Shown here one piece after another: positions 6,009 through 45,030 of a stretch of DNA of 50,550 nt (within the stretch, counting starts at the first letter, position 1; the number at the start of each line of letters is the position of its first letter). The notes under the pieces were generated by a model that did not search any database, had not been told where the DNA came from, and saw only the letters and a list, made by a program, of their open reading frames with translations. This stretch comes from a virus. The stretch covers positions 1-50,550 of IMG/VR virus record IMGVR_UViG_3300042691_040812. The stretch is one strand, 5' to 3'. The position numbers were made by a program, and so were the translations under genes.

Positions 6009-6016
6009 TATTTATA
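6009..6016 (+). promoter_or_regulatory. TATTTATA box, candidate late promoter element
   Basis: TATTTATA lies in the 17-base gap between the stop of the 207-aa gene and the ATG of the gp25-like gene, ending 4 bases before the ATG. The same or nearly the same octamer precedes the genes at 8373, 27202, 32607 and 35084 and, on the minus strand, the gene ending at 45019. If it works as a -10-like element, like the TATAAATA late promoter of T4, transcription would begin at or very near the start codon. An 8-mer of A/T is expected several times by chance in a window this AT-rich, so the evidence is its position, not its mere presence. Confidence 0.4.
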
Positions 6017-14300: not shown

Positions 14301-14951
14301 TTTGGCGGATTACTACCCGCACAAATAGATGGTGACTATTCACAACTAATATCGATTAATTCTGAATTCGGAGTTTTGGAATATACACCTGAAAATTATG
14401 GACAAAATTCTATTTATTTTGCAATTGAAGATGATAACGGATATCCATATTATGGTGTATTTTTTAGTGGAAATAATCAACAAAGGGATTATGTTACACC
14501 GAGAAGAACACTTTGGAATCCCACCGCAACAGTACCTTTGGGTAGTGCGGACACGACTAATATTTTAGTGAGAACCCAAGTAGTTCCTTTCTATCAATGG
14601 AGAACTAATCAATCATTGGGTGACCCACTCCCAAACATATTCGCAGCACAAAATAACAATTTTAATACAATTACCTCAAATTATTATCCATATGGTTACC
14701 AATCACTTGATAGACTAAATCCAGCATCTAGATATTTCAGACCAAATGGTAATAATAGTTTTAATTATAAAGGGTATATATATAATATTGATAATGCAAC
14801 GGGTGAATTTGAAACAACAAGTCCGAGCGGGTTTGTAAGAAACTATGTCTTTGGTGCTCCATTTCACTTTTATTTCGGATTAATACGAGGAGCGAGCGCT
14901 ATGGATAGATTTATAACTAAATATGTTGACACAAACTTTGTAAATGAGTGA
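8373..14951 (+). CDS. giant tail/baseplate structural protein with internal hydrophobic helices, 2192 aa
   Basis: No full-length family is recognised. Residues about 50-175 look like a carboxypeptidase-regulatory-like beta-sandwich (ICGRVFANRGLGIQNARVSV, then the typical TNDAGDFMIFGVPVGEYEI strand pair). Residues about 585-640 form two or three strongly hydrophobic helices (FILFSFVISILKFVFIPLTL and following), followed by a cysteine cluster CERCRC near 677-682. The remaining 1500 residues are Asn/Tyr/Gly-rich beta structure typical of tail proteins. It lies directly after the gp25/gp6 pair and overlaps the next structural gene by 8 bases, so a baseplate or tail-hub peripheral role is likely. 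The hydrophobic segment is unusual for a virion protein and might contact the host membrane during infection. T4 gp7 occupies a comparable position after gp6, but no homology can be claimed. Confidence 0.75.
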   Translation: MPNSYRVRTSLGEDKVIPIKLDQEFDTLEILSLSIFPNDVYTRNCADFGVICGRVFANRGLGIQNARVSVFIPIQPEDEENPIISTLYPYKSFADFNEDGYKYNLLPYVKSYTGHVPVGTFPDRIDALTNPAVVEVYDKYYKFTAKTNDAGDFMIFGVPVGEYEIFMQVDLSDIGEFSLTPQDLIRMGRATESQVNGTTFKFSENYSELPQIITLTKTVQVAPFYGEKDICDYYIVRADFDLTSEAAIEFKPTAVFMGSLISSNNRKKLKKNCKVPGKQGWLCDLVTGPGQIECIRQTIFTDEDGRPVLEEHKLENDGKLIDSNGAWLVELPMNLDYIYTDESGNRRISPDGSVGVPIRGRYRFKIKWQQTTLLNEENRRAYFLVPNIKEYGWTSPESLSDADDPALSTSIPDFVPSLDNNTNIINLAPSTTTYYGFESSSNVSLYTVLVDGVERPEYQQIIPMPQLVGSLVQISYSLIDAGSGDGSIRFSRLNVGQFQLQSSYAFSLSWVDYGTDDMIQEAINCEDRFYEFQYNKVYTVSQLIDRYSGGIFPSKTIQIKHITDNKCEGDYYPFPTNDAHYRYDILFILFSFVISILKFVFIPLTLMMHILAFMWLPVGAIIVFVQGITTVIAKICNFVNTLGANLSCPEDTGWPPFPENPFKNIALPLFLNTEEGCERCRCNIEVIPENPSELANAINNSINQILEGNTSEFANFATSSDYTPTSIVYPLLSNNQNNPTQYTDDPLQGRLRTILAGWNGVYQEGYLNQSNHWKRLPVFTNTQDFYPNEVYGGIQRDIFSLDLTLAERLNLFNTKAKYFDNMVSAWIPANINQLFTNTPFNPVAINSNDNTQQSNVNNVYTPAFFDRIDSYIPGSREELYERYGTGVVGNTVGGQPSYILDAVDTLSPGNTGWNQVKVSWGIDFTENLNSPANADIYGDFKSHFDNLIVMVVDSGSTLQKGGLYTFQNPDQSSDPNRNVTDGIYTYPTNVTVTYANPKFADTSRPPKLTQTYKIRNSNYIATGTTCYPSDIEYFQVIHEMSLADYLNLTNPASDVGGNVNLYDSDGVYNNEFGKIRGDYRFSLPFRFLRTNRGKTQLHWGKPETIFQLPEEEADPIYHNAISVYQVFYQTTQIDSDGSTPLVYCNACGRETTANSYTLDAWRSYNNRRRLKVVFIQRGVDPNSPKIKMGFDLRRYFGCKNPWDQLTCEKTGLAAGVDPDTSGQNISAGSPENAPTWRVEGFFRMNIPIQPGGQVDGESWTTTNPHGLQLPYHNEVQNNEPNPSTRWSNIFFPSYVFTYNAPGNNFDGSWKTTMPNFYSALDKYTKTYATSWVNFEPTLIYPNLNSADALDMDAVSPGWFNEGVVTSNLKNGFTKFLVKERARNKWDIQGIGTDGKYSYQFKIPCSISTGPTAGGGLMVGTAPNFDIAGQANFGPQGLCCLDGSGSFDDGEYEWDDPDTSTCLAGAVRYHKVVPNYLVNNASGYWGREYVEGGSFFSIRLKVRSQGLRRDLNCNYNYEQCMQGGGLSSGILAQQRTIAFSIAEPRISPEGISSYFYDDEGLYFGSNNRGLYVSPVYAAFPENVPPPAGVSQENWYVNPQHEITMSNPSRIVFRTDRLPSSDYLQTDENGNAYILGQNSGFKVYLIEECEVEQIGGGEVALVFPTDSNISDLMPNGNYNQVANSLVNCRDAVDLNSYGVDGTGIPFIHNFGDNNPSPYSRLNANSGPDYVWFKRGTGCYNLVSKTFASLFNRTIDANEFEPVKKYNDIRSVVEWTQRLKLTFAQCFDIFSHTFSNNWINGTLYAFSFQNATIFDSNNQPNREYCKNTIYFHSPLKNYYYRSSPWNGTDFVGKAKYNLTLIDDNAPNRYGNTKNLLFPTTILDMGPKNRFIQEIVFSDEYDGYIADVIPTTSFKDITTLQNLFVLSRLVNTKFIQILFPTGNVDDDTGNESGSDDPSIAAFFGNQRWYSTNINPEGELFFGGLLPAQIDGDYSQLISINSEFGVLEYTPENYGQNSIYFAIEDDNGYPYYGVFFSGNNQQRDYVTPRRTLWNPTATVPLGSADTTNILVRTQVVPFYQWRTNQSLGDPLPNIFAAQNNNFNTITSNYYPYGYQSLDRLNPASRYFRPNGNNSFNYKGYIYNIDNATGEFETTSPSGFVRNYVFGAPFHFYFGLIRGASAMDRFITKYVDTNFVNE

Positions 14952-23039: not shown

Positions 23040-25220
23040 ATGAGTTTTTATAATGGAATTAATACCTTAACTGGGGATTGCTCAAATACAGGAAGTGGTG
23101 GGTTTACAGTGTACCTAACAAATGAGAATTTTTTTTCACCACCTTTTACCGTGCAATGGATTTTTCCTGAATCAGGTACAACTTTTTCATCTACAACTAT
23201 TTTAAATTCGACTTATAGTGTTACAGGTTTAACTGCAGGAACATATTCCTTTAATGTTTTGGGACAATCAGGGGCAATTGTAGGACCAATCAATTATACA
23301 ATTTTTATAAATTCTGCAAATACAATATCACTACAGAGTTTTCAATCAACTACTTGCGGTAGTAGTAATGGGACTATAACTTTAAATGCCCCAAATACGA
23401 TATTTGTAAATAATTATTACCTTTATAATCAAAATGGCCTTGTTAATTCGGCAACTACCTCTAATTCTATTTATACTTTTACAGACCTCTCATCAGGACT
23501 ATATTATGCTGAAGCGGTTGATTATGGTAACTGCCAAGGTATAAGTAATAGTATTTTTGTAGGTGAATCAACACAACTTGATTTTGGTTTGTATACAATT
23601 AACAGTCCGGCTTGTTTAGTGGATAATGGTCAAATTTATGTTACGGGAGTAACAGGGACCCCTCCATATACTTATTATTGGGGGGAAGGTGTATATGAAA
23701 ATTCTAGTGAATCATTTAAAACTGGATTAACCTCGGGGGCATATTCTGTTGATGTAACAGATGTTTTTGGGTGTACAACAAGTAAAAATACTGTAGTAGG
23801 AAATGCTAGTGCTTTAGGGATACAAACGTATAGTGTTATATCACCAAACTGTATGATTAACAACGGAAGTATTACCTTAATAATTAGTGGTGGGTCTGCT
23901 CCATATTATTACCTTTTAAGTAACGGCGATTCACAAATTTTATTATCTAACGAAGTAACTTTCACGGGGTTAAGTAGTGGAAACTACGTTTTAAATGTCA
24001 CAGATGTTGGACTTTGTACTACCAGTTTAAATTTTTCTTTATTAACCCCACAAACTTTTTCAGTTATATCGACTTCTTCAGTTGAACAATCTTGTAACAC
24101 CCTTGGCTCAATTAATGTAAATTTACAAGGAGGTACTCCTCCATACCATCTGAATTTGAGTGGGAACTCAACAAGTCTATCACAGACAATTTTTGTTAAT
24201 TCAACCACATTCAATGGGTTAATTGGGGGTACTTATAATTTAACAATTAATGACACGGCAAGTGCGTGTACCTATACGGAAACTTTGATTGTTGGAAATA
24301 ATTCTCATTTTGACATTGGCCTCTCATCTACAGGGTCAACATGTGCTAACAACAATGGAGTTGTAAGAGTGGACATTATTAATCAATATTTAACTGGATT
24401 AACATGGGTTTACAGTTTGTCAAATGGATTAACTAGTGTTCCTACAGAACAAAATTTTTACCAATTTACAGGACTAACTACAGGTTTTCATACAGTGACC
24501 GTAACAGATACTACAGGTTGCTCAAAACAACTTACTCAATTTGTTACAGGTACTTCTCCTTATTCTATATTTTTATATACTACTGAGTGTTTGCAAGGGG
24601 ATGCTGGAACAATAACCGCTTTAATTCAGGAATCTGACGGGCCATTCATTCTTACGTGGAGTGATAATGTAAATGGACAAACAGGTTATTATGTTACAGG
24701 TTTGACCGCTGGTACATATACACTAACAGTAAGTGGTGAAACAGACTGTATTACTTCTGTCTCAACCACTATTTCTTGTACACCACTTAGTGGTACAAAT
24801 CACTCATTTAAATATACTTCAGGTAATAAGACATCCTCATCAACATCAAAATTGAGTTTGAAAAATATGATGTACCAAGGGTACAGTCAAATTGCGACTA
24901 GTGGAGATAGTTGTTCTTTGAGTTCTTGTACATTCTATTTAAAAGTAAACATTGCAGGAACTGATTACCAATTCCCTTTTTATAACACATCAACATTTAA
25001 TAACATACCTGAATTTAGTGAATTTACTACTGTCTTACAAAACGCAATACTCACAATACCGCATATTACAACTTGTATAATAGACCCTATAAAAAATACA
25101 ATAAACATAGTTTCAGAGTCAGATGGGAATACTGAATACTACAAAGGTGAAACGGTTTTATTTACCGTAATTTTAGATTTCACCATAAAATGTAGGTCTG
25201 TAAATAGTGTTCCATGTTAA
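23040..25220 (+). CDS. SprB-like repeat tail protein, seven Ig-like repeats, 726 aa
   Basis: About seven repeats of roughly 75-85 residues fill residues 1-575. Each has a conserved Cys near its start followed by an NG(x)I strand, then in the clearest copies GG(T/S)xPY, and ends in TGL(T/S)xGxYxVxVTDxxGC. This is the pattern of SprB repeats, known from the SprB gliding adhesin of Flavobacterium and other secreted Bacteroidetes proteins. The last 150 residues are a different domain with Cys pairs (CSLSSC) and a beta-rich end. No signal peptide or sorting signal is present, so it is a virion protein, likely a fibre shaft or decoration. It begins 3 bases after the 981-aa gene. Repeat architecture suggests acquisition from, or exchange with, Bacteroidetes hosts. 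Confidence 0.8.
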   Translation: MSFYNGINTLTGDCSNTGSGGFTVYLTNENFFSPPFTVQWIFPESGTTFSSTTILNSTYSVTGLTAGTYSFNVLGQSGAIVGPINYTIFINSANTISLQSFQSTTCGSSNGTITLNAPNTIFVNNYYLYNQNGLVNSATTSNSIYTFTDLSSGLYYAEAVDYGNCQGISNSIFVGESTQLDFGLYTINSPACLVDNGQIYVTGVTGTPPYTYYWGEGVYENSSESFKTGLTSGAYSVDVTDVFGCTTSKNTVVGNASALGIQTYSVISPNCMINNGSITLIISGGSAPYYYLLSNGDSQILLSNEVTFTGLSSGNYVLNVTDVGLCTTSLNFSLLTPQTFSVISTSSVEQSCNTLGSINVNLQGGTPPYHLNLSGNSTSLSQTIFVNSTTFNGLIGGTYNLTINDTASACTYTETLIVGNNSHFDIGLSSTGSTCANNNGVVRVDIINQYLTGLTWVYSLSNGLTSVPTEQNFYQFTGLTTGFHTVTVTDTTGCSKQLTQFVTGTSPYSIFLYTTECLQGDAGTITALIQESDGPFILTWSDNVNGQTGYYVTGLTAGTYTLTVSGETDCITSVSTTISCTPLSGTNHSFKYTSGNKTSSSTSKLSLKNMMYQGYSQIATSGDSCSLSSCTFYLKVNIAGTDYQFPFYNTSTFNNIPEFSEFTTVLQNAILTIPHITTCIIDPIKNTINIVSESDGNTEYYKGETVLFTVILDFTIKCRSVNSVPC

Positions 25221-25223
25221 TGA

Positions 25224-26213
25224 ATGAGCACAATAACTATAAATAATATAAGCGGGATACCCCCATATAACATATATGTTTGTGATGTATATGAAATTAA
25301 TTGTATTTTAACACTTTCAGGTGTAAGCTCGGTACCACCCGCAATCACCCTTTCAACACCGCAAACTTTTTATAATGCACCATCGGTAGTTATAAAAATT
25401 ATAGACAGTCAAAATTGTGTTTTTAAACAAACTTATACTTGTTTAACACCTACCACAACAGAAACAAATACCCCAACACCAACAATCACACCCTCAGTTA
25501 CCCCAACATTATCAATAACCCCAACTAATACCCCCACACAACAAACGCCAACACCAACCGCTTCGGTTACACCAACAATGACCCAAACACCAACTAATAC
25601 CTCAACTCCGATGTCAACACCAACACCAACATTACCTCCTGTAAATGGTATTGTTATATTGGTAGAACCTTTGAGTGGTAATACTCTTATTGGTGATTAC
25701 TTAAATTCTGAAGGTAGTGGATTTTATGGTTTTGGTAATGGTGTACATCCATCTTTAAATCAATATGATTTTTCTTTTGAAATGAATAAATATGTTGATG
25801 CAATTTTTAATTACGGTGGATTTGTAAGTTTTCCAGTATTTTTCCCAAATAGAAATAGTGTTGATAATTTTGGTAATAAAATCTATGAACCAAATTTTCC
25901 CACAGTAGGTACTCGAGAAACGTCTATCATAACTACAGCATGGTATACATTTTTGATTCCAACAGGAGCTACTATAATGGAAATAGATGGTATTTTAACC
26001 CCGAAAAAACAAATAGAGATTGATTTGAGTCATGATGACCCTACAAATTTTGTTTCGATTAGAATGAGTTCACAAATTTACCAAAACGCTTTTCAATATA
26101 CTGGAAATTCCATTTCAAGAACTTATTACTACGTATACACCTCTTTCCCATCACCGGATTTTTTGATTGACAATTCAACACCAATCTATTTTAAAGGAAG
26201 TAGGGTTGGATGA
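25224..26213 (+). CDS. tail fibre-type protein with SSPY/C-type head, Thr/Pro linker and C-terminal domain, 329 aa
   Basis: Three parts are visible. Residues 1-75 are a small Cys-containing domain (ITINNISGIPPYNIYVCD, then a later IIDSQNCVF) shared with the proteins at 32255 and 44795-45019. Residues 76-142 are a Thr/Pro/Asn-rich linker of TPTxTPT repeats. Residues 143-329 form a globular C-terminal domain with aromatic and Gly-rich strands (IVILVEPLSGNTLIGDYLNS), perhaps a binding domain. There is no signal peptide. The start is two codons after the previous stop. A host-contact role is inferred from architecture. Confidence 0.75.
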   Translation: MSTITINNISGIPPYNIYVCDVYEINCILTLSGVSSVPPAITLSTPQTFYNAPSVVIKIIDSQNCVFKQTYTCLTPTTTETNTPTPTITPSVTPTLSITPTNTPTQQTPTPTASVTPTMTQTPTNTSTPMSTPTPTLPPVNGIVILVEPLSGNTLIGDYLNSEGSGFYGFGNGVHPSLNQYDFSFEMNKYVDAIFNYGGFVSFPVFFPNRNSVDNFGNKIYEPNFPTVGTRETSIITTAWYTFLIPTGATIMEIDGILTPKKQIEIDLSHDDPTNFVSIRMSSQIYQNAFQYTGNSISRTYYYVYTSFPSPDFLIDNSTPIYFKGSRVG

Positions 26214-32057: not shown

Positions 32058-32258
32058 ATGAAAAAATATTTGATTTACAATTATGTTGGAAACAGTTTTT
32101 GGGGAGGAACCCAAAAAGGATTCTCGGAAGGATTTATTTATAATGATAAAATATTAGTTTTTGATTCACGTTTGGAGGCTGAAGACGAGATATCTAATAA
32201 TGTGATTTCGAATTACGAGGGAGTGTTCGAAGTAATTGAAGTTTTTAGAAACATATGA
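32058..32258 (+). CDS. small hypothetical protein, 66 aa
   Basis: A short acidic protein starting MKKYLIYNYVGNSFWGGTQK. ATG at 32058 is preferred over an upstream in-frame TTG at 32052 because the latter lies inside the end of the preceding gene and gives a less usual MIMKK N-terminus. It overlaps the next gene by 4 bases (ATGA), so it is translated in the same unit as the small cap-domain gene. Function is unknown; it may be a fibre-assembly chaperone by position, which is a guess. Confidence 0.6.
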   Translation: MKKYLIYNYVGNSFWGGTQKGFSEGFIYNDKILVFDSRLEAEDEISNNVISNYEGVFEVIEVFRNI

Positions 32259-32566
32259 GTTGTAGTATTCAAATAAATTCAATATCAGGAACATCTCCTT
32301 TTAATGTTTATTTCTGTGATAATTTATTTTATCAATGTATTTTAGTTGATACTTTGGTTTCACCAACATTTCCTGTATCGGTAGAATTACCAACACAATT
32401 TGTCGGTACAACCTATCTTACCATAAAAGTTATAGACGCTAACGGATGTCAATCGTTCATACCCATAACATTCCCAACTGCTACCCCAACGCCAACAATA
32501 TCATTAACTCCGTCTTTAACACCCACTCTTACCCCAACGCCAACCCCTACATCAACAAGTCCATAA
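32255..32566 (+). CDS. small SSPF/C-type cap-domain protein with Thr/Pro tail, 103 aa
   Basis: Residues 1-72 are the same small domain as in the N-terminus of the 329-aa protein and in the 74-aa minus-strand protein: INSISGTSPFNVYFCD, a second Cys (QC) a few residues later, and a C-terminal IKVIDANGCQSF strand. Residues 73-103 are a Thr/Pro tail ending TPTPTPTSTSP. In the 329-aa protein the tail continues into another domain; here it ends. It immediately precedes a large CC-domain protein at 32607, the same order as the minus-strand pair 45019/44793, so the two probably act together. Role unknown; a fibre adaptor or decoration is possible. Confidence 0.75.
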   Translation: MSCSIQINSISGTSPFNVYFCDNLFYQCILVDTLVSPTFPVSVELPTQFVGTTYLTIKVIDANGCQSFIPITFPTATPTPTISLTPSLTPTLTPTPTPTSTSP

Positions 32567-32606: not shown

Positions 32607-35069
32607 ATGGCACTTGGATTTAGAGATTGCTGTAATTCAGCAAGTTATTTTTTATTAAACGGTATTCCTGGTACAGTTTCTCAAAATGAAGTTTATGAGA
32701 TTATTACATTAGAAGGACCGATTTTTTGCGCGACGTATTCTACTTTACCTGTATTAAACTATTCTCCCCCAACGTATAATTTGGTGGAAATGACAATGCA
32801 AGATAACTCAACTGGTAATGGTTGTTCCAATTGTATTGCAAATAATCCATGCCCATCAGTCCAAAACATCCAACTGTCCCAATTTGGACCTGGTTCAATT
32901 GCAGTCGGAACAGACTGCGATATTAGAACTATGTATCCAATGTCAGTAAGTTGTGATATAACAAACCCATCATTTGATGGGTTTGCAGACGGTACTGTTA
33001 GACTTATCGTAACGGGAGGTAGTTATCCTTACACTTTTTTTAGTGCGGGAACTAATCCACCGGTATATTTTGGTAATGCTAATCCTGACCCAAATACCCC
33101 TGCACCACCTAACAATACATATATAATAATTGATGCTGCTGAGGAGGGAATATATAATATTACAACGGTAGATGCTCAATCGGATTATGTTATTACAACA
33201 ACATGTGTATTGGAATCACCGCCAGCACCTTTAGAAGTTGTCGTAACACCATCAATTGTAAGTATAATTGGGGAATGTGATGGGTCTTTATTGATATCTA
33301 TAGAAGGAGGAACTCCTCCATTTACTGTTTCGGTAAATTCAATACCAATCATTACTAATACAATTACTGATTTGTGTGCAGGAGATTACGAAATTGTTGT
33401 AATAGATTCGGGTGAATTCCCCAATCAACAGATAGTAACAACAAACGTCACAATTGGGTCACCACTACCTGTCGAATATACCCCAAATCTATGTTTTACA
33501 GTTGGTCAAATTTGTTCAACTACCTTTAACTTGGAATTTCAACTTCAAGTTGGGGTTATATATAATTTAAGGGCGGTATATCAATGTACAAATCCTCAAG
33601 TATTAGGTTTAACAAACTTATTATTAAGATGGGAAGAAAATGTTTCAGTGGGTATAACACCTTACACTGGATGGGGAATTGGATTACCTTTTCAGTTATC
33701 AAATGGTAATGTTTCTTTTAATGAATCTTGTGGGCAGTCACCAATAAATTCGTTTGTTAGATTTGTTAAATCTGACCCTGAAACAGAATTACCACTTGGT
33801 AATTATACAACTGATGTTGGATTTTTGTCAGGATTAATAGGAAATGTTGCTGAAGGAACTTGTGCTGAAGTCGGAGGAGGAGGCGGAGGTGGAGGAGACG
33901 GAGGTGGAGGAGACGGCGGCGGCGGAGACGGCGGCGGCGGAGGCGTAGGAGGACCATTATCATTTACTTTCCAAGTTGTGCCCGCGCCATGCGGTCAACA
34001 ATCTGGAAGCATTATTATTGTAGCTCAAGGAGGTACCCCACCTTATACATATTTTACTAACAACGGTGGAGGGAATGTTTCATCTCCAGTCCCAACAATA
34101 CCACTAACTGTTGGTAATTATACGGCATATGTTGTTGACAGTACTGGAACAGAAAGTGCCACAGCACCTTTTACAATTACACAATTACCTTCAGTTCCAA
34201 TAAACATGTTATTTACAAGTATTATTGATACTGGGGATGTAGGGAATTATCTTGAATCTCCCACGGCCTCTCAAGGTATTGGGCAAGGAGGACAACCAGA
34301 TTGTACTACGGCTTGTCCTGAGATAATAATTGCTCAAGGTGAAATGTCTGAATTTAATTATCCTATTAATATAAATATTACAATTGATGGGTTAGGGCCT
34401 GGACAAACATTACAAGGATATTTTATAGTAACTCTAAAACTTCAGAATGTATTTAGTGTAAATTATCCGAGTTGCGTTTCAAGTATAGACACCTTTAATC
34501 TATTAGGGGGAAGCATAGGGTTTATATATAATGGAACAGGATATCCAAATACACCAGGTGTTACTACAGATGATATATTTAAACCAAGACCAACAAATAT
34601 AAATACTAACTTATTAACAGCTTCTCAGAGCAATGGATGTGTTAGTAGTCTTTCTGTTTCAATCTTGGATGCCTTTGTGAGTAACCAGTGTAATGTTTCG
34701 GTTGCAACCTTTGAGGAATTACTTTCATTTGCTCAAGATAGATGGGATGCATCTAGAGTTCAAACAAAAACTTATACAATAGGTAGTGCTGGCTCACCAA
34801 TTACTTTATCGAATGGTATAGGTGAGTTTAAATTACAGTTTGATGGTAGATTTAGAACGGCATCTGAGAACTGTGCACCAGCAAAAGGATTTCAGTGGGA
34901 AGTTCAGTTTATAAGAACATCATCAGATATTTTATGTACAACATTTAATTTCAATGGGGCAACCTATGTTCCTGGTGGAAACCAAGTCTACAGGGCATCT
35001 ATAAAACAAGTAGGACAACAGCTATATCCATCAGTAAATGGAATAAGTAATATTCAAATTATAAACTAA
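32607..35069 (+). CDS. modular tail protein with CC-type head, SprB-like repeats and poly-Gly hinge, 820 aa
   Basis: Residues 1-88 form a Cys-rich head (FRDCCNSASYF, later PIFCATY and CSNC) that resembles the head of the 2272-aa minus-strand adhesin ([18 protein letters not shown]). Two Ig-like repeats follow (about 110-205 and 215-295), the second with the SprB-type start EGGTPPF and end CAGDYEIVVID. Residues about 300-420 are a separate domain. A poly-glycine hinge with Asp spacers fills 423-449, then a third SprB-like repeat (AQGGTPPYTYF) and a 290-residue C-terminal domain with FTSIIDTGDVGNYL at its start, a motif reminiscent of the 329-aa protein. No signal peptide. Likely a host-contact virion protein preceded by its own box and by the small cap-domain gene. 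Confidence 0.8.
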   Translation: MALGFRDCCNSASYFLLNGIPGTVSQNEVYEIITLEGPIFCATYSTLPVLNYSPPTYNLVEMTMQDNSTGNGCSNCIANNPCPSVQNIQLSQFGPGSIAVGTDCDIRTMYPMSVSCDITNPSFDGFADGTVRLIVTGGSYPYTFFSAGTNPPVYFGNANPDPNTPAPPNNTYIIIDAAEEGIYNITTVDAQSDYVITTTCVLESPPAPLEVVVTPSIVSIIGECDGSLLISIEGGTPPFTVSVNSIPIITNTITDLCAGDYEIVVIDSGEFPNQQIVTTNVTIGSPLPVEYTPNLCFTVGQICSTTFNLEFQLQVGVIYNLRAVYQCTNPQVLGLTNLLLRWEENVSVGITPYTGWGIGLPFQLSNGNVSFNESCGQSPINSFVRFVKSDPETELPLGNYTTDVGFLSGLIGNVAEGTCAEVGGGGGGGGDGGGGDGGGGDGGGGGVGGPLSFTFQVVPAPCGQQSGSIIIVAQGGTPPYTYFTNNGGGNVSSPVPTIPLTVGNYTAYVVDSTGTESATAPFTITQLPSVPINMLFTSIIDTGDVGNYLESPTASQGIGQGGQPDCTTACPEIIIAQGEMSEFNYPININITIDGLGPGQTLQGYFIVTLKLQNVFSVNYPSCVSSIDTFNLLGGSIGFIYNGTGYPNTPGVTTDDIFKPRPTNINTNLLTASQSNGCVSSLSVSILDAFVSNQCNVSVATFEELLSFAQDRWDASRVQTKTYTIGSAGSPITLSNGIGEFKLQFDGRFRTASENCAPAKGFQWEVQFIRTSSDILCTTFNFNGATYVPGGNQVYRASIKQVGQQLYPSVNGISNIQIIN
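33873..33953 (+). repeat. glycine-codon repeat encoding a poly-Gly/Asp hinge
   Basis: About 81 bases of GGA/GGC/GGT codons with GAC inserted every fifth codon encode GGGGD-type repeats (residues 423-449 of the 820-aa protein). The stretch is strongly G-rich, unlike the AT-rich surroundings. It separates the N-terminal two SprB-like repeats from the third, so it probably acts as a flexible hinge. Repeat length could vary between isolates by slippage without breaking the frame. Confidence 0.85.
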
Positions 35070-35071
35070 GG

Positions 35072-35079
35072 TATTTATA
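35072..35079 (+). promoter_or_regulatory. TATTTATA box before the 735-aa gene
   Basis: TATTTATA begins 2 bases after the stop codon of the 820-aa gene and ends 4 bases before ATG at 35084. This gap is only 14 bases, so the box occupies most of it, which argues for a function rather than chance. Candidate late promoter element. Confidence 0.42.
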
Positions 35080-35083
35080 AACG

Positions 35084-37291
35084 ATGGGATATATAATAAA
35101 AGGAAATCAAGGTTTAGTTGTTACAAGATTAACCGATGTAGGAAGAAGAAAAATTTCACAAGGAAATTTTAATGTTTCATATTTCCAAGTAGGAGACAGT
35201 GAAGTGAATTATCAACAACTTCCTGATGATTATGATTTTTCTAATGCGATGATTTTGGAACCACCATTTAATGCTCAAAATAATTCGGGTGTTCCTCAGT
35301 CTACTAAAAATGAAGTTAAATATCCTTTTTATTTACAAGGAACTTCTGGTGTGACATACGGAATTCCATATCAGGCATCAGGGATTGATGAAGTTTTTAA
35401 TACCGCATCACCAGCAGGATTTTTTTCACAAGAATCAGAGTATTGTTTCAAGTTTATAGATGATGGTATTTGTATTAATTCACAATATGTTATATTGTTA
35501 AGTCAATTTAATGGTGGTACTACTATTAATTTACTTAATTTCCCTTGTTCTGATTCTGCAACAGGAACAATTACCGCCGGCATGAAAGTTGCGGTTTGGA
35601 TGAGAGGTGGAAGTATAGGAAATTCATGTTCGGCTTCAGTTAGTTGTGTAGAAACTTGTCAACCTGTCTTATTTTATAATGTGGTTTTTTTTGGAGGAAA
35701 CATCTTATCTTTAGATAGACCTTTACCGAATTTTGATAACTCAGGTATTTTAGGATACGCTAGATTTTTCTTTTATTATGGTGATGTAAGTCAATATGAT
35801 TTACCGACACCAATGACTTATTTTACTGACTCAGTTATAAACTATGAATCAATTTGTTATCCTACAGATGGATTCGTTAGAGTTTGGAACTTAAATATTC
35901 CATGGTCTGAGAGTCCCGCAGGGAGTAACGTTTCAAATTTAACATATCAAGAATTTGATTCGGTTGATTATTTAGGTACAAAAGAATATTATGGGTATTC
36001 ATCTACAGGACAAACAGATACTTCAGGAACTTGGTATTATAATTCATACGGAGAAAGAATAGATGTCGTACCTGTGGACCAAAAGGTAATTGGAATTGTA
36101 CACTACACTAATAATACGATTATAAATTGGTATGGTGAAAAATTTGCTTGTGAAGTTTATGATGTGGCAAATCCAGGACAAACAGGACAGGCAAGAAATT
36201 TCCAAATAACAATTCCATGGTTATCTTGGCATAAAAATGATTTCTGTTGCTCATCTTTAAATGCCGCTAATCAAAGACCGACAACATTTTATATTGACCC
36301 TCCAGGATTTGATGAGTTTGATTTATTAACACCTCATTATATACAATCACCTTATAATAGTGATATGAATAGTCCTGGTATTAGGTATTTTCATTTATAT
36401 GATACAAACGAAGCTTACACAGACGGACCCCCAAATAGAGTTGGAAAAGTATTTCCTGACGACAGAGTAATTGTATTTGACGATGAAGAAATAGTTGCCG
36501 CTTTAAGTTATGCATCAAATAGACATTTTACATTACCGGCTCCAAGACTCGGATTAATTAATCCTGGTACAACCGATGGGATATTAAATGATGATACAGA
36601 ATGTATTTGGGTTACCTACGCATTTAGGAGTGAAGTTGAACAAGGATTACATTGTAATTACTATCAGAAAATTTGTGGTCCATCACAAGACTGTGGAGGT
36701 GGAGACCAAAACGTAATTTTTTCATTTGGGGGAGATTTTCAGTGTATGAGTAGAAACTTATCTTATGGATGGGCTGCTCAAGATTTTTTAATTTTAGCTC
36801 AAAAGACCAACACTACAAATAGACCTGACCCTGCTCTTTGGAAAGAGATGGATTTTACAACTACTTTATTTAATGCTGGTTTTATTGACGGTAACGGATT
36901 TATAGACCCTGTAGGTATGACATCTTTGAGTTTTACTTTAAATCAAACTGATTATGATGCGGCTCCTTTCTATTCCTTATCGGACCAAGTTGTAGTTCAG
37001 GTTGTAAATGATACCGACCCATTTGCAATGAATTTCGGAGAGGAAAGTTTTTTCCACGGATATATAAGAACAGACATTCAAGCGACTATTTATGAAATGA
37101 GGTACTTAATTAATTTACCAAATAATCAATTTGTAAATTCTTCAAATCCTACATGGTCAAGTGGAATAACTCCTAGAATGACTGAGATTGGTTTGTATGA
37201 TTCAGATAGAAATTTACTTGTTACATCAAAATTACAAGCTCCGCAAATTAGAGAAGGGGTCCAACAAGTGGTGGTTAAATTAGATTTTTAA
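35084..37291 (+). CDS. tail fibre/structural protein with EIGLYD-type C-terminus, 735 aa
   Basis: The C-terminal segment at about 699-717 (MTEIGLYDSDRNLLVTSKL) matches the EIGL(Y/F)D-x-DxxL pattern found in tail-collar and fibre attachment proteins of tailed phages. The N-terminal 40 residues (IIKGNQGLVVTRLTDVGRRK) read as a compact structural domain, possibly the attachment to the particle. The middle is aromatic-rich beta structure with scattered cysteines (SCSASVSCVETC near 182-193). No membrane helix or signal peptide. It closes the plus-strand structural block and is followed by the resolvase gene. Confidence 0.75.
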   Translation: MGYIIKGNQGLVVTRLTDVGRRKISQGNFNVSYFQVGDSEVNYQQLPDDYDFSNAMILEPPFNAQNNSGVPQSTKNEVKYPFYLQGTSGVTYGIPYQASGIDEVFNTASPAGFFSQESEYCFKFIDDGICINSQYVILLSQFNGGTTINLLNFPCSDSATGTITAGMKVAVWMRGGSIGNSCSASVSCVETCQPVLFYNVVFFGGNILSLDRPLPNFDNSGILGYARFFFYYGDVSQYDLPTPMTYFTDSVINYESICYPTDGFVRVWNLNIPWSESPAGSNVSNLTYQEFDSVDYLGTKEYYGYSSTGQTDTSGTWYYNSYGERIDVVPVDQKVIGIVHYTNNTIINWYGEKFACEVYDVANPGQTGQARNFQITIPWLSWHKNDFCCSSLNAANQRPTTFYIDPPGFDEFDLLTPHYIQSPYNSDMNSPGIRYFHLYDTNEAYTDGPPNRVGKVFPDDRVIVFDDEEIVAALSYASNRHFTLPAPRLGLINPGTTDGILNDDTECIWVTYAFRSEVEQGLHCNYYQKICGPSQDCGGGDQNVIFSFGGDFQCMSRNLSYGWAAQDFLILAQKTNTTNRPDPALWKEMDFTTTLFNAGFIDGNGFIDPVGMTSLSFTLNQTDYDAAPFYSLSDQVVVQVVNDTDPFAMNFGEESFFHGYIRTDIQATIYEMRYLINLPNNQFVNSSNPTWSSGITPRMTEIGLYDSDRNLLVTSKLQAPQIREGVQQVVVKLDF

Positions 37292-37330
37292 TTTACAAAA
37301 GTAATTTTATTATTAACTTTTTTCTAACGT

Positions 37331-37921
37331 ATGGCAAAAAGTATAAAAAACTCGCCCAAGATTTTGGGTTTAGACGTGTCAACAAAAACTATTGGTATGG
37401 CACTTTTTGATATGTCCTCGAGAGACCTTCTTGAATTAACTCATATATCACCAAGACCTAAACCAATTTCTGATAACAAGATGGAGGAATTATTTACAAA
37501 GTCCGCAACCTTTAGGAAAAAACTTGAAGAATATAAGGGACTTGGTATAATTAAATGTGTTATTGAGGAACCACTTCTTAACTCTAATAATGCTTACACA
37601 ATTGGAACGCTACTTCGTTATAATACTTTAATTAGTAAGGAAGTTTATGATGTTCTTGGAATTGTCCCTGAATACGTATCGACCTATGAGTCAAGAAAAA
37701 GAGCATTTCCTGAACTTGTCCAAAAGAATGAAAAAGGAAAGTTTGTCTTGTTTGGAGGATATCCTAAAGATTGTGATAAGAAACAAATAGTTTGGGAACT
37801 CGTCGCCAAAAGAGAACCACAAATTCAGTGGTTATATACTAGAAACAATACTCTAAAGAAAGAAAATTTTGATATGTCAGACTCTTACGCAGTAGTTTTA
37901 AGTTATCTAAACAGTAAGTAA
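37331..37921 (+). CDS. RuvC-like Holliday junction resolvase / RNase H-fold nuclease
   Basis: A 196-aa RNase H-fold endonuclease. The first strand ILGLDVSTKTIGMALFD carries the catalytic D15; E79/E80 in CVIEEPL is the second acidic position; D181 and D184 in FDMSDSYAVVLSYL are the C-terminal pair, as in RuvC (which has D, E, D, D). Such enzymes cut four-way DNA junctions and would be needed to debranch replicating DNA before packaging, the role T4 fills with the unrelated endonuclease VII. An insert of about 30 residues near 125-155 (PELVQKNEKGKFVLFGGYPK) may be substrate-specific. It has its own 39-base leader and is followed by a terminator, so it may be a single-gene unit. Confidence 0.85.
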   Translation: MAKSIKNSPKILGLDVSTKTIGMALFDMSSRDLLELTHISPRPKPISDNKMEELFTKSATFRKKLEEYKGLGIIKCVIEEPLLNSNNAYTIGTLLRYNTLISKEVYDVLGIVPEYVSTYESRKRAFPELVQKNEKGKFVLFGGYPKDCDKKQIVWELVAKREPQIQWLYTRNNTLKKENFDMSDSYAVVLSYLNSK

Positions 37922-37951: not shown

Positions 37952-37976
37952 CCCCGATTTAATATCGGGGTTTTTT
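37952..37976 (+). terminator. rho-independent terminator after the resolvase gene
   Basis: CCCCGAT (37952-37958) pairs with ATCGGGG (37964-37970) across a 5-base loop and is followed by six T residues (37971-37976). It lies between the converging plus-strand resolvase gene and the minus-strand adhesin gene. On the minus strand the stem is not followed by a T run, so it should mainly stop plus-strand transcription. Confidence 0.85.
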
Positions 37977-40900
37977 ATATTGGGCTGTCACCGTCGAAAG
38001 TCCATGTATATGATGATTGTATGTAAGTTCTTGCATTTTCGGCCGTACCACCTGAGGTATAAGTTAGACCATTAACACCAAATGTTACTCCAGTTTGTAA
38101 AGTTAAACCTGACCAACTAATTAAAAGGTTATCATAGTTAGTTGTACTTATATTAGTGTTATCGAGCATATTAATCATACTTGAAACGTTTGAAACATTC
38201 CAACCTGAAATTGGTTGATTGAAGGAAGTTGCCCCCAAGAACATGTTATTCATATTTATAACAGAACTAACGTCCCAATTTCCGATTGGTTGATTGAATG
38301 GGACATTAATAGACTGACCAAAGAACATACCAATCATATTTGTTACGGCTGAAGTTGTCCAAGCACTAATTGACGGACTTCCACCGTTATTAAAGGCAGT
38401 GTTTGAGAACATCTCTTCCATATTCTCAGATGAGGAAGTGTTCCAATTTCCAATGTTTTGGTTGAATAAATAACAACCCTTGAAAGTTCTATAGAATGAT
38501 TCAACGTTTGAAACGTTCCATCCACTTAATGGTTGATTGAATTTATGATTTGAGGTTAGGGTATGGAACATCCAACCCATATCGATAACATTATAAACAT
38601 CCCAATTTCCGATTGATTGGTCAAAATTTATAGCTGATGCGAACATTCCATACATGCTTGTTGCGGCCGAAGTATTCCAACCACTTAATGGTTGATTAAA
38701 TGAGGTATTATTTCCAAACATAGACCTAAAATTCTGAACATTAGAAACATCCCAATTATTTATATTTTTATTGAAAGAGCTAGACGCAAACATATAACTC
38801 ATATCTTCGACATTAGATGTGTTCCATCCACTAAGAGGTTGATTAAACACGCTACTATTGAACATAGAACTCATAGTTGTGACCGCAGATGTGTTCCAAT
38901 TATTTATAGGTTGATTAAAACTAATATTTCCATCAAACATTGAAGACATTTCTTGAACGTTTGATGTATTCCAACCACTTAATGGTTGATTAAATGTTGT
39001 TGAGTACAAGTTACCGTAAAACATTCTGTTCATGAAAGTTGCTGCTGATGTGTTCCAAGAACCAATAGGTTGGTTAAAAGATTGAGCGTCTCTAAACGTA
39101 TCATTGAATCTTGTTACATTTGAAACGTTCCAGTTAGAAATATTGTCGTTGAAGTTTCTCGCCCCATAGAACATTGTTGTCAAGTTATTAACCGAAGATA
39201 AATCCCAACTATTAACATTATTTATGGTTGTTAATGAATTACAATTTCTGAACATTCCTGATAAATTAGTAATACCTGATAAATTTGGAGTGTCAGTAAC
39301 ACCTGTTAATACCAAATTATTACAATTTAAGAACATACCACTGTTACTTGTAGAACTTCCTTTAATGTTACCCCATTGAACAATTTCTCTGATATTTAAT
39401 CGACTTGTGGTTACAGAATTAAAATTATAACCTATAACAGAACCATCAATTACTATAGTGTAAGTACCGGCACTAACAAAAGTTTTTGTTCTATTTGTGT
39501 AAGTGTTAGATGATGTTGAACCGTCACCCCAATAAATTGTACCCGAATAGGTTCCCGTTGGGATATATGGTAAAGTAATTGTTTGATTTGAGGTTGTTGT
39601 TCTCCAATTACTTATAAATGCTGTTGATGGCCAAGGTGTTGATGAAGGGGTTATTGTAGGGGTTACAGTTGGAGTATTTGTGTTTGTGGGTGTTTGTGTT
39701 ACAGTTGGAGTATTTGTGTTTGTAGGTGTTTGTGTGACAGTTGGTGTTATTGTTTCTGTTATACTTGGTGTAACTGTATTTGTTGGAGTAACACTTGGTG
39801 TAACTGTATTTGTTGGAGTATTTGTTGGAGTCGGAGTTGGAGTTGGTTGAATACAACCTGAATCATTTATAATCCAATTATACGGACTTCCAGTTAGTAT
39901 TGAGTATGAGGCGCTTGCTGTTACACATTCGTAAAATAGATTGGAAGCACCTAGCTCAACATTAGACTGTATTGAAGGGGCTTGAGATGCCCAACCAATT
40001 AAAATACTACTAAAATTGGTAATATCAATCGATGTATTATCCAACATAAATGACATTGTATAAACATTAGAAATATTCCAACCACTCATTGTTTGATTGT
40101 ATGATGATGTATTATAAAACATGTTAGACATACTTAAAACGTTTGAAGTATTCCAAGAATTTATGTTTTGATTGAATGAGGTTGCGTCATAAAACATAGA
40201 TTCCATATTGTTTACGTTTGAAGTATCCCATCCACTAATATCTTGATTAAATGAAGTTGCTCCATAAAATAAACCAGACATATCAGTAACATTGACAGTG
40301 TTCCACGAACCTATATTTTGGTTAAATGAAGTTGCAAATTCAAACATATATGACATATTCCCTAAATTGGATATATCCCATCCACTAATATCTTGATTGA
40401 ATAAAGTTGCCGAGCAAAACATATTCGACATACTCTGAACGTTGGATACATCCCACCCCCCAATATTTTGGTTAAAGTATGAATCACCATCAAACATAAA
40501 TCTCATATCATCCACGTTGGTGGTGTTCCAAGAAGATATATCCCCGTCAAATATACTACCTGCAAATACACTATTCATACTTGAAATATTTGAAGTATCC
40601 CAAGAATTTATGTTGTTTACAGTTGAAAGTGACGTACAATCTTTAAATAGGGACGCTATACTCGAAATACTAACCAAGTTAATTGTATCTGTTACGGCTG
40701 TAATTACCAAATTTGAACATCCCGAAAACATACCAAAATTACTACCTGAGTCACCTTTTAAATTTCCAAATTGTAGAATTTCTTTAATTGAGTTCGAACT
40801 ACCATTATCATATAGACCAAAACTAAATCCTTCTACCTTACCATTAATTGTTATTATGTAGTCTGTTGGTATATTATATGTGTGAGTTCTATTTGTGTAT

Positions 40901-43900
40901 GTATTTGATGAAAAAGTACCATCACCCCAATCGATTATTCCTGTATAAATTCCTGTAGGGGAATATGGTAAATAAATTGTAGATGTACCATCCCACTTGG
41001 AGATGAATGGTACTATTGCAACTGAAGTTGGAGTTGGTGTAATTGTTGGTGTTTGTGTTGTAGTAGGGGTCGTTGTAGAAGACGGGAATGGTGTAATTGT
41101 GTTTGTGGGGGTTATTGTTGGAGTTGGAGTTGGAGTTGGTGTTTGGGTTTCCGCCGGCTCAACTGAAGGAACAAAACATGCCATATGTAGATTATTATTA
41201 CCGGCATCCAATAAGTATATTTTATTATCATAAGAATTATAACCTATTTGTGAAATACTAGAAATTGTTGTATAAGTTGTTGAGTTCAAAGTAAAGTTAT
41301 TCAAGTCGAAATGTGCAACAATATTTGGAGACATAGCGGCATGAATAAAGTTGTAATCGTAATCATATGTTATACTAATTATAGGTGATGAAAAACTAGA
41401 CAAATCTATAACGAATTGAATAGAATTTGTTGACATATCCCAAGCCATGATTCCTGAAAAATTATTTGATGGGATGTAGGTAAGACCATCAAATTCATTG
41501 AAAATTATTTCTGAATATGGAATAGAATAGAAGTTTCCTAAAACAGTAGTAGAAAAAGTTGTACAATCAATTTTAGTGATTGTGCTATTATTTCTACCCA
41601 CACAAACTATACAGTTATTTAATGAGTCATATACTAAAGAACCCATATAACCATCACTTAAACCTATATTAATAACTGTAGTATTAGTAACTAAACTATA
41701 AACTTGAATAGATGATTCTGAAGAATATAAAATGTAAGCTCTTTGGTTTATGGTGTCGATGGCTACAGAAATAGGTTGGGTTAAGAATGATGAAATTGAA
41801 AATACACCAGTGTTTGTGGGTGTGTAGAAGACATCGGTATTATTAGTAGTTGTGTTAGGTACGAACAAATAGTTTTGGCTCTCATCAAAAAATGGCTGAG
41901 ACATATTTTCACCAGTAGGTAGTTGACCAAGTATGTTTGTAGTCGAGGCTGAAAAATACTCTACTAATCCAGCATAACCTAAATAAGTTTCGCTAACATA
42001 TACATAACCATTATTTATATCAAAGGTAATCGTATTAGGTGTACCTGATAAACTTGTAATTAAAGTCGGAGCACATATTGGAGTTGAAGTTTGTGTTGGA
42101 GTAATCGTCGGAGTATTTGTCGGAGTAGGAGTAGGGTAAATTGATTGACAAGGTAAAAGTCTAATTATACCATTGAAATTAAAACCATTAAAATTATTAA
42201 ATGACCCTAAACACATTACTTTATTATTTTCATCAACAAAAGTATCAACAACTTTGTTGTTGAATCCTGGTAATGTGTAAAATTGAGTGTTAATTAATCC
42301 ATCTTTATTTATTTTCAATATAGAACCGTTCTCAATACCGTTGAATGACGAACCACTAAACATTGTTATAATTAGGTTATCGTCAACAGATTGTGATATT
42401 GAAGTTATATATCCCACAGAAGAGGAAGTTCCAACATTTAATTGGAATACTGAGTCTGGAGTTCCACTTAAATTAAGTTTTATAAATCCATAGTTTTGAC
42501 CATAAACACTATAATTAGAGAATGTACCTGAAACATATACACTATTCTCAGAATCTACAAATAAAGTTATTGGAGTACCATCAAAACCAGAACCAACACT
42601 AAAAGTAGGGTCAACTGTACCATCGGAGTTTAATTTTATTATTTTTGAGGCTAAATAAACCGTATTATAATAACTGAATGAACCAACTACAATAATTGAA
42701 TCATCCTCCAAAACTGTAATTTTTGTAACAATTCCATTGAAACCACTTATAGATTGGAATGTTGAATCCAAAGTTCCATCAGAATTTAATCTACAAAAAG
42801 AATTTACTGAAACACCATCGTAACTGTTAAACGTCCCTCCAACTATTATTTTATTATTTGATTGAATATCTAAAGTTAAAACAGCGTCTGAAAAACCAAC
42901 TCCCACTGAAAAAGATGTGTCTAATGTACCATCGGAGTTAAGTCTACAAATACCATTTCTACTAACTCCACTATAGAATTGAAATAAACCACCACAAATT
43001 AATTTACCATTAGGTTCCTCTAAAACATTTACAGGTGAAAATTCTGAAATTGTTATTGAAGAAAAACCCGAAGAAGTAATAAAAGTATTATCAACAACTC
43101 CATTAGGTTTAATTTTTATAATTCCTGAACATGAGTAAGAATTGTAGGAAGTAAAACTTCCGACAATAATGTAATTTCCATCAGATAATTGAATAATTTT
43201 TTGGTTATCAATTAGTGGGTTAAGTCCTGTACCTATAACAAATGAATAGTCTATTCCTGTATTTTGACAAGGTGTTGTGCTGGGAGTTAAACTAATTGTT
43301 GGAGTTTGTGAAGGAGTTCTAGTAACTGTGGCAGTTGGAGTTACACTAGGTAAAGGTATACAGTTTAAACAGTCAAAGAGGTTACCACTTTGAATTAATT
43401 CTAAAGATGCTGTGGTAGGCGCAAAAATATCACTTATATAAGTAACACATAATCCTTCACCATTAATTATTGCATTGAAAGTAGAACCAGTATTAAATGG
43501 TATTGTTTCTTTAACTATGTAAGAATTACCATTAGAACAGTTTAATAATAATTTGTTAAAGTTACTCTCGAATGATGACTGAAAAATATTAAAATCTACA
43601 TTATCTTGTAGAATACAGTTCTGATTTGTGTTTATTGGTGTTGTACTTGGAGTTGGTGTTATGAAATTATAGAAGAAAGTAGTTGCTGAAACAGTTACCG
43701 ATTTGTTAAGGCAGTAACTAGTTGGAGTAATTGTTACCGTTGGAGTAATTGTTGGAGTAATTGTAACTGATGGGGTTGGAGTTCCTCCAGTCATTAAACA
43801 ATCAAAATTTGCCGTAAAATCAAAAGTATTACAAACATCAGTATTTGATGGGGTTGGAGTAGGACAAAATACATTAAAGAAAGAACTACTTAAATCTGGA

Positions 43901-44793
43901 CATAAACTATAACTTGGAGAACCACCAAATATTATACAATCACCACCTAAGTATGTTGAAATACACCATCTTGTCTCACCTGATTTATAAAATAAAAAAG
44001 AGTTAGTTTGACAATATGGGCAATAATAAAATGATTTTCCATTATATTCTCCATAATAATCATAAGAACCATTATATTGTGATGTTGCACTAAAGTTAGT
44101 AAAAACACAAAAACTATTATTTGTACAAGAAGTATATTGTGTTGTTGTGGGTGTTGGTGTTAAAGTTGAAGAAGGAGTTATTGTTGGAGTTGATGTTGTT
44201 ACAAAAGATGGAAGTGGTGTTTTAGTTTGTGTGTTGGTTGGGGTATTCGAAGGTGTTACTGTGTTGGTTTGGGTATTCGAAGGTGTTACTGTATTAGTTT
44301 GTGTATTGGTTGGAGTTACTGTGTTGGTTGGGGTATTCGAAGGTGTTGTCGGTGCGGAAGTAGATGTGGGAGTTTGAGTTGCCGTCCTTGTTGGAAATGG
44401 TGTTTTTGTATTACTTGGTGTTATAGTAGGGGTTACATTAGGTGTTGGTGTTTTTGTTGGTGTTGTTGTTTTTGTGGGGGTTAAAGTTTGACTAGGTGTA
44501 TTTGTTGGTGTTTTTGTGTTAGTTGGAGTCGGAGTTGGCGATGGTAATGGTAAACATGTGTAAACTGTAGTACAAGCACTACATGTGGAGTAACCGGATG
44601 ATGGGATGTTTAATATACTAACAACAGAGACTGTTGAAGTATAACCTGTTGAAATGAAGAAAGAACAACCACTATAAATTTCTGTTTCTAAATAATATGA
44701 TTCACCTACTATAAAGGGTGATGGGGTTGAAACTTGCGTTTGAAATGTGACAGAATCACAACAGCCTGAAAATTTGTGCCAAAGTAAACTCAC
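37975..44793 (-). CDS. giant modular adhesin: Thr/Pro linkers, two beta-propellers, two BspA-like LRR regions, 2272 aa
   Basis: It starts at GTG (44793), two bases after the stop of the 74-aa gene. Order from the N-terminus: Cys-rich head (1-85, [10 protein letters not shown]); Thr/Pro linker (about 86-222); a Cys-rich domain with [15 protein letters not shown] (223-310); further short domains and linkers; delta-60-type propeller repeats (about 520-888, [11 protein letters not shown] repeats); a linker; a second propeller of YVTN/NHL type (about 905-1212); a linker; then two duplicated units, each a WGDG-containing beta domain followed by BspA-like leucine-rich repeats (about 1263-1650 and 1728-2272) of the form FNQxxxxWNTSNVxxMSxMF. 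There is no signal peptide, so export is unlikely and a virion adhesin is the best guess; other binding roles remain possible. It is the only large gene on the minus strand. Confidence 0.85.
39671..39742 (-). repeat. 36-nt tandem repeat in the second Thr/Pro linker
   Basis: Two copies of a 36-base unit (39671-39706 and 39707-39742) differ at only a few bases and encode two copies of [12 protein letters not shown] in the linker between the two BspA-like regions of the 2272-aa protein. The unit is a multiple of three, so gain or loss changes the linker length without a frameshift. Confidence 0.8.
44241..44340 (-). repeat. 30-nt tandem repeat in the first Thr/Pro linker
   Basis: A 30-base unit begins at 44241, 44271, 44301 and, partially, 44331. 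Read on the minus strand it encodes ten-residue repeats of the type [10 protein letters not shown] in the linker near residues 150-185. The first two copies are almost identical; the third is more diverged. Because the unit is a multiple of three, slippage would change linker length while keeping the frame. Confidence 0.8.
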
Positions 44794-44794
44794 C

Positions 44795-45019
44795 TTATGT
44801 TACAGAAAAACAATTGTTTATTTCACACCCATCATTATCAACCACTCGCAAACAAAAACTTGGAAAAGATTGTAGAGGGGTTGGCACTGTAAAAACATAA
44901 GGTAATTGACTACTTTGAATGAAATCTATATAATAACATTCACTCGACCCCGACATGCATAAATAAATCTCATAGGGAGAAGAACCAACTACATTACTTA
45001 CAGTTACTGATACTGGCAT
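44795..45019 (-). CDS. small SSPY/C-type cap-domain protein, 74 aa
   Basis: A homologue of the cap domains at 25224 and 32255: [20 protein letters not shown], a second Cys at SECYYI, and the end [15 protein letters not shown]. Alignment to these proteins places the start at ATG 45019 (MPVSVTV) or, two codons earlier, 45025 (MNMPVSV); longer readings to 45133 would run back over the primase start and add unrelated sequence. Unlike its two relatives it lacks a Thr/Pro tail. It is followed after one base by the giant 2272-aa gene, so the pair forms an operon similar in order to 32255/32607. Function unknown. Confidence 0.75.
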
Positions 45020-45022
45020 ATT

Positions 45023-45030
45023 CATAAATA
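45023..45030 (-). promoter_or_regulatory. TATTTATG box upstream of the minus-strand adhesin pair
   Basis: On the minus strand TATTTATG runs from 45030 to 45023 and ends 3 bases before the preferred ATG at 45019; its last three bases are the alternative ATG at 45025. It differs from the plus-strand box by one base. Its presence before the only minus-strand structural-type unit supports a shared regulatory element of the adhesin and tail genes. Confidence 0.4.

Follow-up and report, generated by a model that had tools for sequence, protein, structure and literature searches.

The gene at positions 37975–44793 of the window, i.e. the whole 50,550-base virus record analysed here, which is probably a fragment of a genome, is likely to encode a tail- or virion-surface adhesin consisting of a conserved base and exchangeable tips. 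Proteins of this kind, with a conserved base and a variable tip, are known; the architecture is new.

The record derives from an aquatic tailed phage and contains a myovirus-like gene set, including genes for a DnaB-like helicase, a ribonucleotide reductase, gp25- and gp6-like baseplate proteins, a primase, and an SbcD-like nuclease. The closest named phages are those of Flavobacterium and Microcystis on the basis of the baseplate protein and those of Microcystis and Tenacibaculum on the basis of SbcD, and no homologues of the products of genes 32607 and 35084 or of RuvC were found in the named phages searched. Two tail-cluster proteins (23040–25220 and 32607–35069) contain SprB repeats (PF13573), which are known from the gliding adhesins of Bacteroidota and likewise suggest a Bacteroidota host; no such repeats are present in the adhesin itself. 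The tail cluster contains another very long ORF (8373–14951; 2,192 aa), for which no Pfam family exceeded the cut-off.

The adhesin gene lies in the slot between the RuvC-like and primase genes, and the large proteins encoded there in the window and its relatives are referred to here as slot proteins. Its long reading frame, reported in the initial annotation, is intact, and the following features were identified in and beside it:

37975–44793, − strand: modular adhesin gene, GTG start, 2,272 aa, zero internal stops
44545–44793, − strand: N-terminal 'CC' cap (residues 1–83), beta-rich fold, pLDDT about 80–87, proposed virion anchor
44134–44544, − strand: Thr/Pro linker, predicted to be disordered
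43783–44133, − strand: Cys domain 1 (residues 221–337)
43318–43614, − strand: Cys domain 2 (residues 394–492), separated from Cys domain 1 by a further linker
42148–43269, − strand: delta-60 (DUF5122) beta-propeller (residues 509–882), from Pfam, AlphaFold, and Foldseek
41158–42075, − strand: YVTN-like beta-propeller (residues 907–1212), from the alignment of relatives, AlphaFold, and Foldseek
39856–41019, − strand: WGDG + DUF285 unit 1 (residues 1259–1646)
39619–39855, − strand: inter-unit Thr/Pro linker
37978–39618, − strand: WGDG + DUF285 unit 2 (residues 1726–2272), an orthologue of the last unit in relative L003
37922–37974, between strands: gap where the RuvC and adhesin genes converge, containing a hairpin that resembles a terminator (CCCCGAT..ATCGGGG followed by a T run, + strand; sequence read directly)

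Pfam matches comprise eight DUF285 stretches (E 2e-200), which agree with the BspA-type leucine-rich repeats proposed earlier, and four DUF5122/delta-60 stretches (E 6e-47). The second propeller has no Pfam match of its own, and slot proteins of relatives that match YNCE, Lactonase, and other propeller models align with it. AlphaFold supports both propellers (mean pLDDT 77.6), and the Foldseek matches are tandem-propeller proteins, e.g. BT4673 (E 1e-21), in support of the two propellers originally proposed. The Thr/Pro linkers described before are also real: threonine accounts for 14.8% of the protein, and the linkers are predicted to be disordered. The model of the stalk shows disordered linkers and a fairly confident cap, with low confidence outside the cap; its fold search returned no PDB match and nothing below E 0.7. 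The N-terminus appears neither hydrophobic nor signal-like, in line with the earlier statement that a signal peptide is lacking. By contrast, the description of the WGDG part as PKD-like was not borne out, no PKD family being found in the Pfam search at E 0.1.

The two WGDG-DUF285 units contain 18 DUF285 repeat cores, spaced mostly by 25 aa. They align with 47% identity over 352 aa and a score of 782, whereas 100 shuffles reach at most 140, and thus their likeness is not due to chance. The C-terminal unit is, however, more similar to the unit at the end of the L003 protein (62–63%) than to its sister unit (47%). A recent in situ duplication was therefore rejected; of the view that the units are internal duplicates, their relatedness stands and a recent origin does not.

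Comparison of 27 slot proteins, including that of the window, revealed a base that is retained and distal parts that are replaced. The proteins range from 272 to 2,680 aa in length; Cys domain 1 is present in 27/27, Cys domain 2 in 16/27, and the cap in 12/27, and delta-60 and DUF285 repeats were found in four and two, respectively. The adhesin shares 40% identity with its counterpart in L004, the corresponding values being 97% for RuvC and 91% for sbcD. The slot proteins have the conserved base and variable tip that characterize phage tail fibres and receptor-binding proteins.

The adhesin gene had been regarded as isolated, but a small conserved ORF adjoins its start, and related proteins are encoded in the tail cluster:

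44795–45025, − strand: small partner ORF of 74–76 aa with a Cys-containing domain and no Pfam family, its stop lying 1 nt before the adhesin start
45024–45030, − strand: TATTTAT box just 5' of the small gene, promoter-like, with a putative function
32255–32566, + strand: small-protein paralogue in the tail cluster (small-protein HMM, E 4e-19; the window's own small protein was part of the training set, with an effect mainly on its self-match)
32607–35069, + strand: cap paralogue at the N-terminus of an SprB-repeat protein, partner of 32255–32566 (HMM of relatives' caps, E 5e-14)
25224–26213, + strand: tail-cluster protein with a copy of the small-protein domain fused on as residues 1–73 and a Thr/Pro linker behind it (HMM, E 5e-12)

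Judging from the relatives and from where the TATTTAT box lies, the small gene probably starts at 45019 (74 aa). The cluster containing the paralogues comes after the gp25- and gp6-like baseplate genes. Elsewhere, larger proteins, some of them of the WGDG-DUF285 type, carry the small-protein domain as an N-terminal fusion (L052, 4424–5857; L104, 7461–9398; L131, 6915–9557).

The TATTTAT box distinguishes tail-type from replication-type genes. Among the relatives, which are not independent samples, it precedes the small gene in 25/25 distinct cases, 32607 in 12/16, and 35084 in 24/41, in contrast to 0/31 for the primase, 0/23 for exo, 0/25 for sbcD, and 1/47 for RuvC. Within the window, it was found upstream of 6/16 tail genes versus 0/12 replication-type genes. 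Boxes of the form TATTTATA on the + strand at 6009, 27166, 28575, 32595, and 35072 lie close 5' of tail genes 6021, 27202, 28615, 32607, and 35084, respectively, and none were found 5' of replication genes; over the whole window this sequence is weakly enriched (15 versus 9.6 expected). The T4-type sequence TATAAATA was not seen in coding orientation 5' of the tail genes, where its reverse complement, TATTTATA, is present. The TATTTAT box may act as a late promoter or as a signal for the start site, and would then imply regulation in common with the tail genes. Homology with the tail cluster and a shared upstream signal, both expected of a tail fibre, are combined in this two-gene locus.

The position of the locus was examined in 80 regions that surround the RuvC-like gene. 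Where these extend as far as the primase, most encode, next to it and divergently, a protein of ~70–75 aa; a few bases further on (about 200 at most) comes the gene for a large variable protein. The slot is occupied in nearly all relatives in which the region is intact and is empty only in L005 and L063/L075–77; in L063 and L075–L077, proteins with the small domain and the Cys domain are encoded upstream in the tail cluster. Two main arrangements were distinguished. In that of the window, the tail genes, 32607, 35084, and RuvC are followed by the adhesin and small-protein genes on the other strand and then by the primase gene. In the other (L020, L030, L041, L046, and others), the block 32607–35084–RuvC is inverted and runs in the same direction as the adhesin gene, which in L020 and L030 is only about 14–28 bases from the next gene. 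The orientation of the block (32607–37921) relative to the adhesin and primase genes changes at least five to six times on the RuvC tree, a count that block transfer could inflate because RuvC lies inside the block, and three to four times on the primase tree. No convincing site-specific inversion repeats were found at the ends of the block, and we therefore refer to a recurrent rearrangement rather than a switch.

These results bear on the proposal, made in the initial annotation, that the gene is a late-acquired, moron-like insertion, and on the fuller form of this reading, in which a foreign gene for a surface protein entered between resolvase and primase and is expressed on its own to the benefit of the infected cell. 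Its strand is indeed opposite to that of the other tail genes of the window, its domains are common among bacterial surface proteins, and a putative promoter of its own and a hairpin lie alongside. The strand is, however, explained by the repeated inversion of the neighbouring block. The locus, with its conserved partner gene, is retained in place, nearly universally and co-linearly, with L005 and L063/L075–77 as the exceptions. Nor is the composition atypical: the GC content (0.330), GC3 (0.209), and codon distance (0.087) of the adhesin gene are within the range of the tail genes, and codon use is thus native. Together with the paralogues within the tail cluster, the tail-type motif upstream, and the N-terminus, which is not signal-like, these observations make a moron very unlikely, and synteny largely refutes this reading. 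Since the relatives keep the two-gene locus in place, it is probably a normal, fast-evolving part of the tail rather than a stray foreign gene.

Display on, or release from, the infected host cell, outside the particle, with a role in biofilm formation, aggregation, or superinfection exclusion, is also unlikely. BspA-like/DUF285 and propeller domains are known from bacterial surface adhesins, and the WGDG homologues L093 and L094, from actinobacterial records, have long, leader-like N-terminal segments; the adhesin, however, has no segment resembling a secretion signal, and the tail-cluster paralogues and the tail-type motif point to the particle. A decoration fibre on the capsid surface that binds environmental polymers, as opposed to a tail receptor-binding protein, would fit with propellers and repeat units being generic binders and with the presence of several separate adhesin-like genes in the genome, but it is quite unlikely given that the paralogues lie in the cluster after the baseplate genes.

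DUF285 was found in 8/42 relative records, both in slot proteins (L003, L021, and L031) and in a homologue of tail-cluster gene 23040 (L060 and L066). Viral contigs yielded 190 confirmed stretches with the WGDG-DUF285 module and prokaryote genomes 12, which is a lead rather than a measured ratio because the search patterns were derived from phage sequences and the two collections are unequal in size. In the viral stretches, the N-termini that bear the module are of many kinds, and some include the small-protein domain as a fusion. The best match in a prokaryote genome, L091 (CAIWBA010000291.1), is a 254-kb contig of a Bacteroidetes MAG in which phage-type genes surround the module, and is probably a large phage binned into this MAG. 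A simple scan, distinct from the MEME test of the PARCEL paper, revealed no excess of dyad symmetry or palindromes in DUF285 DNA over synonymous shuffles.

Like the DUF285/BspA-like/PARCEL repeat proteins (PF03382) described by Roske 2010 (PMC2996958), the adhesin has tandem repeats of about 25 residues that match the DUF285 profile and vary in number between relatives; unlike them, it adds the WGDG domain, propellers, and a phage-specific cap, and no membrane targeting was seen. DUF285 arrays also occur in large tailed-phage genomes, for example those of the jumbo phages Vibrio pir03 (ORF 287 and the PARCEL gene ORF 200; PMC7765460), Aeromonas D3/LAh10, and Pseudomonas OBP, but their proteins share at most about 43% identity with the adhesin, confined to its WGDG/DUF285 part. 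Coverage of the adhesin stays below 80% in all phage records, and no paper on delta-60 repeats in phages was found in the literature searched. In another virus, AaV, purified particles were found to contain DUF285 proteins (PMC7507832). As in fibres and receptor-binding proteins with a conserved base and variable tip, a conserved N-terminal part is combined with fast-diverging C-terminal modules and a small partner gene; in contrast to a classical trimeric fibre, the adhesin, known here from sequence, has a long disordered Thr/Pro stalk and modules of the bacterial-adhesin type.

The tail-cluster paralogues, the tail-type motif, a base that is kept while the tips vary, and the presence of the tip module on other tail-type proteins indirectly favour the multivalent surface-binding fibre originally suggested, and a role of the adhesin in sticking to the host or to another surface is probable. 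The cap, possibly with the co-encoded small protein, would anchor the adhesin to the particle; the stalks, predicted to be disordered, and the small Cys domains would keep the tips away from it; and the distal propellers and leucine-rich-repeat-like WGDG-DUF285 units would bind a ligand on the host or an environmental surface. As our comparisons show, recombination replaces, lengthens, and shuffles tips among phage tail-type proteins, so that a lineage could change what it sticks to. A broader scheme is possible, albeit doubtful: aquatic phages may be a main reservoir and vehicle of WGDG-DUF285, a cassette moving between unrelated tail-anchor proteins, and the block 32607–35084–RuvC may repeatedly flip its orientation between two paralogous small/cap cassettes, the two jointly forming a recombination-driven surface-changing system.

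Large uncultured aquatic phages carry very long proteins without an assigned role, and this locus provides a testable picture of one such case, in which a conserved anchor pair is joined to rapidly changing adhesin tips whose modules are more familiar from the surface proteins of bacteria. Such a picture would help to explain how these phages find or switch hosts and where the DUF285 repeats, with their patchy distribution, move.
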